DNA from: Chondrocystis sp. NIES-4102
GTDB taxonomy: Bacteria; Cyanobacteriota; Cyanobacteriia; Cyanobacteriales; Xenococcaceae
Reading direction: 5' to 3'
DNA: 64,000 nt
Assembly (NCBI GenBank): GCA_002368355.1
Contig: AP018281.1
Span: 186,001-250,000 of the forward strand
Below the pieces are notes generated by a model that searched no databases, was not told the DNA's origin, and saw only the letters and a program-made list of their open reading frames with translations. Positions within the stretch are counted from its first letter, which is position 1. The number at the start of each line of letters is the position of its first letter. The position numbers and the translations under genes were made by a program. Below are positions 55,747 to 59,794 of this stretch, piece after piece.

Positions 55747-55861
55747 CTGATATATCTGCACTAACTTATCCCATTATTAGCTATCTCTTGAACAGGATAA
55801 AATTCATTCATCCTTATCCGTATAAAATATGGCTTTTGCATTACTTGGTACGGGCGATCGC
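55747..55861 (+). repeat. mfd leader repeat, copy A
   Basis: This segment resembles the region preceding and starting mfd (59677-59794). It shares TATATCTGCACTAACTT and the piece around ATGGCTTTTGCAT, then TACGGGCGATCGC. Its own ATG (55829) leads to a 16-codon frame only, so it is a copy of the leader and not a gene. It shares more of its 3' half with copy B than with copy C. Confidence 0.88.
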
Positions 55862-56157
55862 TATATCTTAAATTTATAATTTCTACTTTACTTTAATGTT
55901 TAATAGTTTTAATTCCGCCTACAATAATACCAAGCAGCCAACCTAAACATATAGTTATTATATAACCCACAATTTTATTTAGATCACTATATATAAAACC
56001 GCCATCTGACGGAATAATTAGATAAACAATAAACCCTAAAGGTAAAGCAACTATTATTCCTATAAATCCCCCTATTAAACCACCTAAAAATGAATACATA
56101 AATACATCAAAACTAGCGTAAATATCCTTATTAATGATGAAACTGCTAATAGTAGGA

Positions 56158-58820
56158 GTGCGATTCGTTCTTACGAAACCTATATATAGGGGGATGTAAG
56201 GCATTGGTTGAGTAAGTTTATATGACTGGAGTTCGCACTTTAATCCTCAACCAATGATAACTAAATAATCTTATTGGTGAGTAACCTTATTGAGCTATAA
56301 AGCAAAGAAAATAAGGGAGATTCTTAATCTCTTAAAACACACAAGTCCAATCCGTCAGACACAGACGTGAAAGCAAAACCTCTGCGGTAGAGAGTGGTCT
56401 TCAATCCGTAAAGCGAGGGGACGGCGGAAAATTACTACTAGCCTAATGTGGTAATCCGTTGGCAAGTTCTCATGATGAACAAGGACTAAGGAGTTGACTG
56501 AATTGTCCCCAGTTAGAACTAGCGGAAAGGCTTATACGCTAGGAGACCTAAAAAGGCATTATCAAACGGTATATCCTTTGATAAACAGGTGATAACCAGT
56601 TTCTTATGAGTTATCTGTGTTACCTAAAAAGTGGCAAATAGACTCCCATCTAAAAGAACAAAACAAAGATTATTTGGAACGAAGTAAATCAATTGTTTCT
56701 CTCAGGCAAAAGGTCGAAAACCTGAGTAATCAACCAAGATGTAACATCTAGTTTCATTAGCTAGGAAATAATTGATAAAGATAGAGTCAGAAGCTAAAGA
56801 CTTCTTGTAATAAGAAGTATATGCTGACAGACTCACGATGAAACGGAAGATAGGGACATAAGTAGAAGTTAATAAGTTATGGACTATGTTGAATTAATAC
56901 AACAAGAGTATGAATGGGCAGACCTACCCTGGAAGAAATTCGAGAAGGTTCTGTATAAGCTTCAAAAACGTATCTATCAAGCGTCCATTCGTGGCAATGT
57001 CAAAAACATTAAACGACTCCAAAAATTACTAATTAACTCCAGAAGTGCAAAATTAATATCGGTTCGTAAAGTCTCCCAAGATAACCAGGGTGCAAAAACG
57101 GCAGGTGTGGACGGAAAAAAAATGCTGACCCCAAAGCAACGTTTTGAACTGGTTGATAAAATCAACTTGGGTTCTAAAGTGTCTCCTGTTAGAAGGGTAT
57201 GGATTCCCAAACCAGAAAAACAAGAGACAAGACCTTTAGGAATACCTACGATAAAAGACCGAGCAATACAATGCCTTGTCAAATTAGCTCTTGAGCCAGA
57301 ATGGGAAGCAAAGTTCGAGAAAAACAGCTATGGTTTTCGACCTGGACGCTCATGCCATGATGCTATTGCAGCAATTTTCGATGCAACAAGATATAAACCA
57401 AAATATGTTCTTGATGCTGATATCAGTCAATGTTTCGACTGTATCAATCACAGAAAATTACTACAAAAGCTAAAAACATTTCCAAAGCTTCGTAAACAAA
57501 TACGAGCCTGGCTAAAGGCAGGAGTCTGGGATAAAGAAACACTTTTCATGACTAATAAAGGAGTACCTCAAGGCGGGGTATTAAGCCCCTTACTTGCAAA
57601 TATTGCCTTGCATGGAATGGAGGAGTATATCAAAGACTTTGCGGAAACTCAAAACATCACCTATCCGAATGGAGGATGTATGAGTAAACAACGTAAAAGA
57701 GACTCAATATCTCTAATTAGATACGCAGACGACTTAGTTGTACTCCACCACAAACATGACATAGTTGTGAAAAGCAAAGAAAAGCTCTCAAACTGGCTAA
57801 AAGAGATAGGACTAGAGTTAAAACCCAGTAAAACTCGAATTACACACACCTTACATAATTGTGGGGCTGAAAAAAAAGGATTCGACTTTTTAGGATTTAA
57901 CGTCCAACAATATACCGTTGGAAAATACAACTGCGGAAAGTGTAGAGGAAAATCACTAGGCTTTAAAACCTTAATCAAGCCTAGCAAGAAAAGCATCCTA
58001 AGACACTATAAACAACTGGCAAAAATAATTACCGAAGCCAAATCTTGGAAACAAGAAGCATTAATAGGTAAACTTAACCCTATTATTCGCGGATGGTGTA
58101 ATTATTTTTCCATAGGGGTGTCAAAGAAAGTTTTTCAAAAAATGGATTGGTTAATCTGGTGGAAACTCTTTAAATGGGGAATAAGTAGGCATAATAATAA
58201 AGGAAAGGATTGGTGTAAAAACAAATACTTCCAAAAATATGAAACTTACAACATAAACGAAGGTAAAATCATCAGTAAAAATTGGATATTCGCGACAACC
58301 AAAGATGGAAATATTCATAATTGGCTACTTTCACATGGTGACACAAAAATCATCCATTATACGAAAGTAAAAAGCGATGTCAGTCCTTACGATGGAAACT
58401 TAATTTACTGGAGTTCCCGTATGGGAAAAAATCCCCTAATGCCATCCCGCAAAGCAAAATTGCTTAAAACCCAAAAAGGAAAATGCAACTGGTGCGGTTT
58501 AACGTTCAGACAAGATGATGTATTAGAAGTAGACCACGTTATCCCAAAATCAAAAGGTGGAACGGATTACTATAAAAACTTGCAGGTACTTCATCGACAT
58601 TGCCATGATAAAAAGACATCAGCCGACGGATCACACGAACCTACCTTTAAACCAGTAAAACTCCCTCAAGGATGGTATTGGGAAGGAGGAATGTTGATTA
58701 CATAGGGTCTAATAGCGTATTGATGACAACAACCGTTTTATTGAGGAGCGCATTGAAGTGAAAGTTTCATGATGCGTTTTGTAGAGCAGTAGGTGGGGTA
58801 ACTCACTTACTGACTTTAAT
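56158..58820 (+). mobile_element. Group II intron, complete, with maturase ORF
   Basis: The 5' end reads GTGCG (56158), the bacterial group II consensus. After the maturase gene a clear domain V is present (58746-58779): AGC triad at 58747-58749, paired GAGCGCAT/ATGCGTTT arms, and a GAAA tetraloop. It is followed by a domain VI hairpin (CAGTAGGTG 58787-58795 with CACTTACTG 58804-58812) and a candidate branch-point A at 58813. The element ends ...CTTTAAT at 58820 (AY end). The 720 nt before the ORF form domains I-IV. Both boundaries are confirmed by the in-frame repair of the interrupted gene. Confidence 0.92.
56879..58705 (+). CDS. Group II intron reverse transcriptase/maturase with HNH endonuclease
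   Basis: The 608-residue intron-encoded protein mediates splicing and retrohoming. The reverse transcriptase domain (about 60-340) has the metal Asp in LDADISQCF and the catalytic YADD at 282-285 (LIRYADDLVVL). A maturase X domain (about 365-440, with GKLNPIIRGWCNYF) follows. At the C-terminus is an HNH nuclease (CNWCG 536-540, EVDHVIPKSKGG, LHRHCHDKK to about 579). All catalytic residues are intact, so the element may be active. The domain order fits cyanobacterial chloroplast-like class introns. Confidence 0.96.
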   Translation: MDYVELIQQEYEWADLPWKKFEKVLYKLQKRIYQASIRGNVKNIKRLQKLLINSRSAKLISVRKVSQDNQGAKTAGVDGKKMLTPKQRFELVDKINLGSKVSPVRRVWIPKPEKQETRPLGIPTIKDRAIQCLVKLALEPEWEAKFEKNSYGFRPGRSCHDAIAAIFDATRYKPKYVLDADISQCFDCINHRKLLQKLKTFPKLRKQIRAWLKAGVWDKETLFMTNKGVPQGGVLSPLLANIALHGMEEYIKDFAETQNITYPNGGCMSKQRKRDSISLIRYADDLVVLHHKHDIVVKSKEKLSNWLKEIGLELKPSKTRITHTLHNCGAEKKGFDFLGFNVQQYTVGKYNCGKCRGKSLGFKTLIKPSKKSILRHYKQLAKIITEAKSWKQEALIGKLNPIIRGWCNYFSIGVSKKVFQKMDWLIWWKLFKWGISRHNNKGKDWCKNKYFQKYETYNINEGKIISKNWIFATTKDGNIHNWLLSHGDTKIIHYTKVKSDVSPYDGNLIYWSSRMGKNPLMPSRKAKLLKTQKGKCNWCGLTFRQDDVLEVDHVIPKSKGGTDYYKNLQVLHRHCHDKKTSADGSHEPTFKPVKLPQGWYWEGGMLIT

Positions 58821-59040
58821 ATAATTGCTATAACCGTAGATAAAAAAACTGTCGCTATTATTAATATTTGTAGAGGGTGTAAGTTGGCAATGCCAGGAAA
58901 TACTGTAAAAATTACAGCGCAAGCTTGAAAGAATAATATTGTCAGCATATAGATAATAAATGCTCAGTATAATAACATCGCTTAATTACCAAAATATGAG
59001 TTAAATTAGTAGCTATTATTAATATTTATAAGTTACCTTT

Positions 59041-59124
59041 TTATTCGCTATGTTTTTAAGGAGGTAAAATTCATTCCTTATCCGTATAAAATATAGCTTT
59101 TGCATTACTTGGTACGGGCGATCA
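59041..59124 (+). repeat. mfd leader repeat, copy B (partial)
   Basis: This resembles copies A and C, with TTATTCGCTAT early and CTTTTGCATTACTTGGTACG late. The start codon equivalent is ATA rather than ATG. It separates the intron-split membrane gene from the hicBA pair. Confidence 0.85.
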
Positions 59125-59161
59125 CTACAATAGTTTATCCTGATAAATACAAATTAATTGA

Positions 59162-59368
59162 TTAAAATTCATCTTCAAAAATACCAGAAACTTTTAAGAA
59201 ATATCTTAATAAGCCTGTCTTCAAAGCTTTATTACCATGTATAGGAACAGAAATTCTTTGTACGTTACCTGGTTTGTCATAAATGTGATGGCTACCGTTA
59301 ATTCTTAACAAAATCTAACCATGATGTTCAAGTAATTTAACAAATTCCTTACCATTAATAGACTTCAT
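59162..59368 (-). pseudogene. hicA: HicA-type mRNA interferase toxin with internal amber codon
   Basis: The frame from ATG 59368 reads MKSINGKEFVKLLEHHG, then TAG at codon 18 (59317-59315), then ILLRINGSHHIYDKP and VQRISVPIHGNKALKTGLLR to a proper TAA. The part after TAG has the double-stranded RNA-binding-like HicA signature (GSHHIY). The stop sits exactly where HicA proteins carry Trp (HGW), so a TGG to TAG change is the simplest explanation. The start overlaps the hicB stop as ATGA. The toxin is probably inactive unless the stop is suppressed or is a sequencing error. Confidence 0.85.
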
Positions 59369-59568
59369 ACCGCAATTTCTAAAATTTGGGCATCGCTGTC
59401 TAATTCAAGATCAGCTTCATTAACAGATAGACATCCCTCGACTGCTTCATATATATTTTGCAACAACTCTTCAAAAGAATCTCCCTGGGTAGCACAACCA
59501 CCAATTGCAGGTACTTCTGCCCAAAAGCCCCCTTCTTCTGCCGTATGAATAATAACTTTCAATTTCAT
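59365..59568 (-). CDS. hicB: HicB-like antitoxin
   Basis: The 67-residue protein (ATG at 59568 chosen over TTG at 59589) has the HicB / UPF0150 fold pattern: KLKVIIHTAEEGGFWAEVPAIGGCATQGDSFEELLQNIYEAVEGCL, described in parts. It lacks a C-terminal helix-turn-helix, as in the short HicB-like group. It lies immediately before hicA with a 4-nt overlap, in antitoxin-then-toxin order. It normally neutralises HicA. The antitoxin is intact while the toxin is interrupted. Confidence 0.86.
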   Translation of the reverse strand: MKLKVIIHTAEEGGFWAEVPAIGGCATQGDSFEELLQNIYEAVEGCLSVNEADLELDSDAQILEIAV

Positions 59569-59676
59569 CTTATAATCAACGACATTCAATAATTGGTTAG
59601 TATTTTATCTTTTATTAAAACAATTTAGAGGCGCAATACAAAGTTAAACTTCTAAGTTATTACTAAGATAGCAAAT

Positions 59677-59794
59677 CTAATATATCTGCACTAACTTGTC
59701 CCATTATTCGCTATCTTTTTATGAGGGTTAAAATATTTTATCTTTCTTCATCCCTCTAAAATATGGCTTTTGCATCAGTAGTACGGGCGATCGC
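59677..59794 (+). repeat. mfd leader repeat, copy C (the functional one)
   Basis: This covers the immediate upstream region and first codons of mfd (ATG at 59763). It shares TATATCTGCACTAACTT and CGCTAT with copies A/B, and ATGGCTTTTGCAT with copy A. It is likely the source of the other two copies. Confidence 0.85.

Follow-up and report, generated by a model that had tools for sequence, protein, structure and literature searches.

Cassettes, several of them toxin-antitoxin pairs, have accumulated in front of mfd in one cyanobacterial group, with many seams on the octamer HIP1

In Chondrocystis sp. NIES-4102 the start of mfd is preceded by two displaced copies of itself with other genes lying in between, which raises the question of how these genes came to settle there while mfd stayed intact. 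We studied a 64-kb window of this genome (G000; AP018281.1, positions 186,001–250,000 of the forward strand), and all positions are given in the numbering of that window (Table 1). A preliminary description of the stretch, made from the letters alone, had reported additional copies of the mfd leader and first codons, and three copies were indeed recovered both by self-comparison of the window and by a search of the whole genome. All have the same orientation. In the 64-kb self-comparison copies A and C are 80% identical over 124 nt (E = 1.6e-23), A and B 86% over 90 nt (E = 6.7e-22) and B and C 77% over 90 nt (E = 5.9e-10). Since the same leader precedes mfd in congeners, copy C is the native one. 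An additional base near codon 5 in both A and B puts them out of frame with mfd. Comparison at base level also upheld the view that copy A is a mosaic: its 5' part is 88% identical to C and 70% to B, its 3' part 91% to B and 78% to C, suggesting exchange between leader copies. A tree for the origin of each copy gave mixed support, the sequences being too short and showing signs of exchange. Aligned lengths of the mfd repeat pairs range from 46 to 140 nt, so there is no fixed duplication length; this comparison took the window together with an overlapping piece of the same genome, and three leader pairs are therefore listed twice.

Table 1. Features of the mfd upstream region (window numbering)
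Feature	Start	End	Strand	Remarks
241-aa orphan gene	54981	55706	-	cassette left of copy A
Displaced mfd leader copy A	55742	55863	+	leader, ATG, first codons; 3' end is HIP1; window self-comparison, alignment
HIP1 octamer GCGATCGC	55854	55861	.	3' edge of copy A, seam to membrane-gene cassette
Interrupted membrane-protein gene, second part	55893	56157	-	edges approximate
Group II intron	56158	58821	+	antisense to membrane gene; edges approximate
Intron-encoded protein	56879	58705	+	RT, maturase and HNH domains
Interrupted membrane-protein gene, first part	58822	58948	-	edges approximate
Displaced mfd leader copy B	59029	59127	+	secure from 59041; window self-comparison, alignment
HIP1 with one altered base (GCGATCAC)	59118	59125	.	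3' edge of copy B, seam to hicBA cassette
hicA-like toxin gene	59162	59368	-	in-frame stop at 18th codon
hicB-like antitoxin gene	59365	59589	-	HicB_lk_antitox, E 1.6e-5, 25.5 bits, under Pfam cut-off of 27
Native mfd leader and first codons, copy C	59672	59797	+	conserved before mfd in congeners
mfd	59763	63278	+	reading frame intact
HIP1 within mfd codons 9–11 of copy C	59787	59794	.	homologous to 3' edge of displaced copies

The displaced copies share a 3' boundary. HIP1 occurs very often in many cyanobacterial genomes, and what it is for has been asked for decades. Within the genus five displaced leaders from three species keep the mfd start (A and B of the window, L2 and L3 of the congener G002 and L3 of the congener G004). 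All five stop at mfd codons 9–11 on this palindrome, which is exact in four and one base off in B, and each is joined to different cargo. A sixth, weak leader remnant in G004 has lost the mfd start and is followed by HIP1 all the same.

As for the cargo of the window, the preliminary description had placed an intron-split membrane gene between A and B and hicBA between B and C. Both were found there, and two corrections apply. The intron is oriented antisense to the membrane gene (RT frame on the plus strand, gene on the minus strand), so that splicing is unable to restore the gene; five full-length copies at 100% identity occur in the genome, including that of the window, and the intron is a separate insertion. 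The hicA frame, named from its own sequence and its place beside hicB and not through a family search, is broken, and the HicA toxin of the window is therefore probably dead. Left of copy A lies a gene of 241 codons without match in Pfam, NCBIfam or PADLOC and with a dN/dS of 0.33. Of 100 genomes searched, only this one and G002 gave a match, in each case next to an mfd leader copy; the relative in G002 likewise stands directly left of that copy, and the gene is part of the same pattern.

Comparison of the mfd upstream region among related strains, which the preliminary description had pointed to, agreed in part with its reading, revealing either other cargo or the native leader alone. Among 12 congeners displaced leaders precede mfd in G002 and G004, where the cargo comprises HigBA, a Gp49/HTH pair, an 86-aa ORF and the 241-aa orphan, in an order that differs from the window; there are also relatives with the native copy only. 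In both species HIP1 marks the start of the HigBA unit, whose left neighbour is mfd sequence in G004 but unrelated DNA in G002. HIP1 also marks the end of the 86-aa unit in the two species, and what follows is the leader in G004 and the 241-aa gene in G002. At these two edges the seam thus lies within GCGATCGC between unlike neighbours, which is the signature expected of HIP1-linked recombination. In 27 genomes of the family, strong extra leader copies among the matches listed were restricted to mfd of G000, G002 and G004 plus one in G017, although the leader model missed a diverged copy at locus L080. The second mfd 5' copy of G017 adjoins YefM/YoeB and ends at the HIP1 of codons 26–29, with one base altered in the copy. 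More distant copy ends came from a set of 157 loci reduced to 140 distinct ones, with four omitted for too little upstream DNA and the length of upstream DNA varying among loci. In Stenomitos (L133) the displaced copy ends at most 6 nt past a HIP1 at codons 11–14 that is intact in the copy but altered at one base in the native gene, while the displaced copy of L080 reaches roughly +64 and has neither a HIP1 at its end nor such a seam. Toxin and antitoxin domains occur in adjacent genes in HigB/HTH, Gp49/HTH and YoeB/YefM, which places these pairs among type II systems; dN/dS is 0.05 for HigA and 0.09 for HigB. Cassettes, several of them toxin-antitoxin pairs, have thus accumulated before mfd in one cyanobacterial group, and many of their seams lie on HIP1.

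For the origin of these arrays we lean slightly towards illegitimate joining at HIP1 together with duplication of the leader and later exchange between the copies. Incoming DNA, for example a toxin-antitoxin module carried by a plasmid or a transformed fragment, would be joined to the chromosome at HIP1, which would offer a ready 8-bp match in nearly any pair of sequences from such genomes. The other end would be closed within the leader, either by a homologous crossover with the sister chromosome or by a replicating strand switching back, giving the order leader-HIP1-cargo-leader-HIP1-mfd. The duplicated leader would preserve the promoter, the start codon and the first codons of mfd, and so the insertion would be tolerated. 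The leader copies would then recombine with each other, as in mosaic A, so that cargo could drop out or be swapped; toxin-antitoxin modules would persist, since a crossover between the repeats removes the antitoxin. The group II intron would have arrived independently, outside the growth of the array. Repeated integration with target duplication, or a build-up of cassettes, had already been suggested for the window and fits the different cargo of G002 and G004 as well as the mosaic copy A, but that suggestion missed the HIP1 edges.

The same seams could arise without any import if the HIP1 of mfd crossed over unequally with an upstream HIP1, giving tandem units of neighbouring gene plus leader from which redundant genes were later lost. 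This would account for HIP1 at the seams and for the frequent similarity between leader copies and the native leader of the same genome (L3 of G002 is 85% identical to L1 of G002, and the 5' part of A resembles C). However, no cargo occurs twice within any single one of the three arrays, and cargo order varies between species. Cargo dS amounts to 0.56 (0.39–0.79) and 0.62 (0.43–0.87) compared with 1.06 (0.86–1.39) and 1.05 (0.85–1.39) for mfd; HigBA and the 241-aa gene are thus perhaps younger than the divergence of their hosts, the bootstrap ranges of HigBA and mfd overlapping slightly. Relatives of HigBA are moreover located at other places, e.g. on contigs of 144 kb (G020) and 309 kb (G013). 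We therefore regard unequal crossing-over as rather unlikely. Several observations weigh against joining at HIP1 as well, among them the L080 copy, the altered octamer of copy B and the block ends outside the arrays (see below). Moreover, among 11 hicBA and HigBA relatives at other places no block ends on HIP1, although for the one in G007 a HIP1 lies 9 nt outside the block.

HIP1 at the seams could also be a mere by-product, with ordinary homologous exchange among strains producing the blocks and alignments stopping at a common, conserved octamer. HIP1 is dense (51 occurrences in the 64-kb window), and conserved words are favoured at BLAST ends. Cross-species block ends outside the arrays, taken from alignments of at least 60 nt and 72–96% identity with G000, G002, G004 and L067 left out, showed HIP1 at 5 of 1367 ends and thus no clear excess. 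Against this stands the left edge of HigBA, where both sides change at the octamer. Allowing 10 nt tolerance, 9 of 19 module edges are located at HIP1 where 1.07 were expected, a result whose significance is overstated because the edges (our own selection, the weak G004 remnant included) were hand-picked and those common to several species are not independent. Among these 19, leader 5' edges coincide with HIP1 in only two of eight cases; within the window an exact HIP1 is present at only one of six edges. Direct repeats of 40–1500 nt whose spacing exceeded 100 nt and stayed below 12 kb, with multi-copy families not collapsed, formed 144 pairs, of which 8 carry HIP1 at the same end in each copy. 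For 40 other common octamers, all of them occurring less than half as often as HIP1, the same test gave 0–4 pairs (up to 4 for those overlapping HIP1, up to 3 for the remainder). Within 400 kb of G000 adjoining the window there were 17 repeat pairs, none with HIP1 at matching ends. Taken together we consider the by-product reading unlikely.

Alternatively, a site-specific recombinase acting in trans could use the mfd 5' end as attachment site, with each cassette bringing a copy of the mfd leader in the manner of gene-restoring islands. Direct repeats, a 3' edge nearly fixed within the genus and an intact mfd agree with this, and the genome has 17 matches to the tyrosine-recombinase family. None of the 17 lies inside the window (C1:186001–250000), and no recombinase was found among the scanned array ORFs of the window. 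In addition, the edge tracks HIP1, at other codons in G017 and L133, the lengthwise mosaic leaders suggest homologous exchange, and the leader DNA has no unusual fold (z of 1.18 for A, -0.60 for B and 0.13 for C, assessed for general folding and not with an attC model). A recombinase in trans is therefore improbable. An integron was rejected since the window has neither a tyrosine recombinase nor an attC-like fold. A transposon with target-site duplication was dismissed as well: no transposase is encoded in the scanned array ORFs, the reverse transcriptase belongs to the intron, and repeat length is variable. A 31-nt pattern of copy A had no match in viral contigs, and a viral source was discarded. 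Repeats are common in cyanobacterial genomes, but a dispersed repeat (REP or MITE) that by chance contains the mfd start is highly improbable and was rejected, as mfd retains this leader throughout the genus and only three strong matches exist in 5.0 Mb, all at mfd, the next best having E = 0.045. Two patterns that would speak against the proposal of the preliminary description, a dispersed element and cargo-free relatives with all three copies, were not found.

Joining at HIP1 with leader duplication resembles several known systems. Integron gene cassettes are small cargo units, toxin-antitoxin genes included, between repeated sites and in shuffled order. The mfd arrays have such units and such shuffling, but no tyrosine recombinase in the window and no attC-like fold; their repeat is a gene leader, and their cargo lies in both orientations. 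Integrative elements such as SXT at prfC insert at a gene's 5' end and rebuild the gene. Here, too, the gene start is duplicated and the gene intact, whereas an adjacent integrase is absent, the cargo is small and the edge tracks HIP1 and not a fixed core. Homology-facilitated illegitimate recombination in natural transformation combines one homologous anchor with one short-homology join and can likewise leave a flank duplication with foreign DNA in between; HIP1 as the usual short homology, which we propose, would be new. HIP1-linked rearrangement itself was proposed in 1993 (PMC6331805). The reported cases are an smtB deletion (Gupta 1993), an excision (Robinson 1997) and plasmid recombination in PCC 7002 (Akiyama 1998; PMC4390886, PMC6331805). 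They share with the mfd arrays seams on GCGATCGC and short-homology joining of otherwise unlike DNA; the mfd arrays differ in being natural chromosomal cassettes that vary by species and duplicate a gene start. The statement that no element of this type had been described thus holds only narrowly: none of the literature searched named cassette arrays at HIP1 or at mfd, so that, as far as these searches go, the arrays are apparently new while HIP1-linked recombination is already known.

At mfd the cassettes of several species meet on HIP1 at a natural locus where the entered gene is kept intact by duplication. The notion that HIP1 promotes rearrangement becomes testable at one known place across many species, and joining at HIP1 suggests a route by which toxin-antitoxin modules could become established in chromosomes although they bring no recombinase. 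A broader reading, possible but doubtful, is that HIP1 acts as a genome-wide docking word for recombinase-free capture, above all of toxin-antitoxin modules: the duplicated flank would save the gene, the repeats would permit exchange and the toxin would punish loss. If true, HIP1 would gain a role in gene acquisition, which would partly explain the upkeep of its high density.

A layout similar to that at mfd, which like the 9 edges on HIP1 had escaped the preliminary description, is present at a second locus in G002 (contig C36, near 240 kb). A search for the empty site of this second locus, at cbiO, gave no clean example, the downstream DNA differing in five of five relatives. The gene at this locus encodes a PemK toxin, and its partner gene has no Pfam match. 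On both sides of the toxin gene we found repeats ending in HIP1; repeat pairs at the locus align over 40, 48 and 107 nt.

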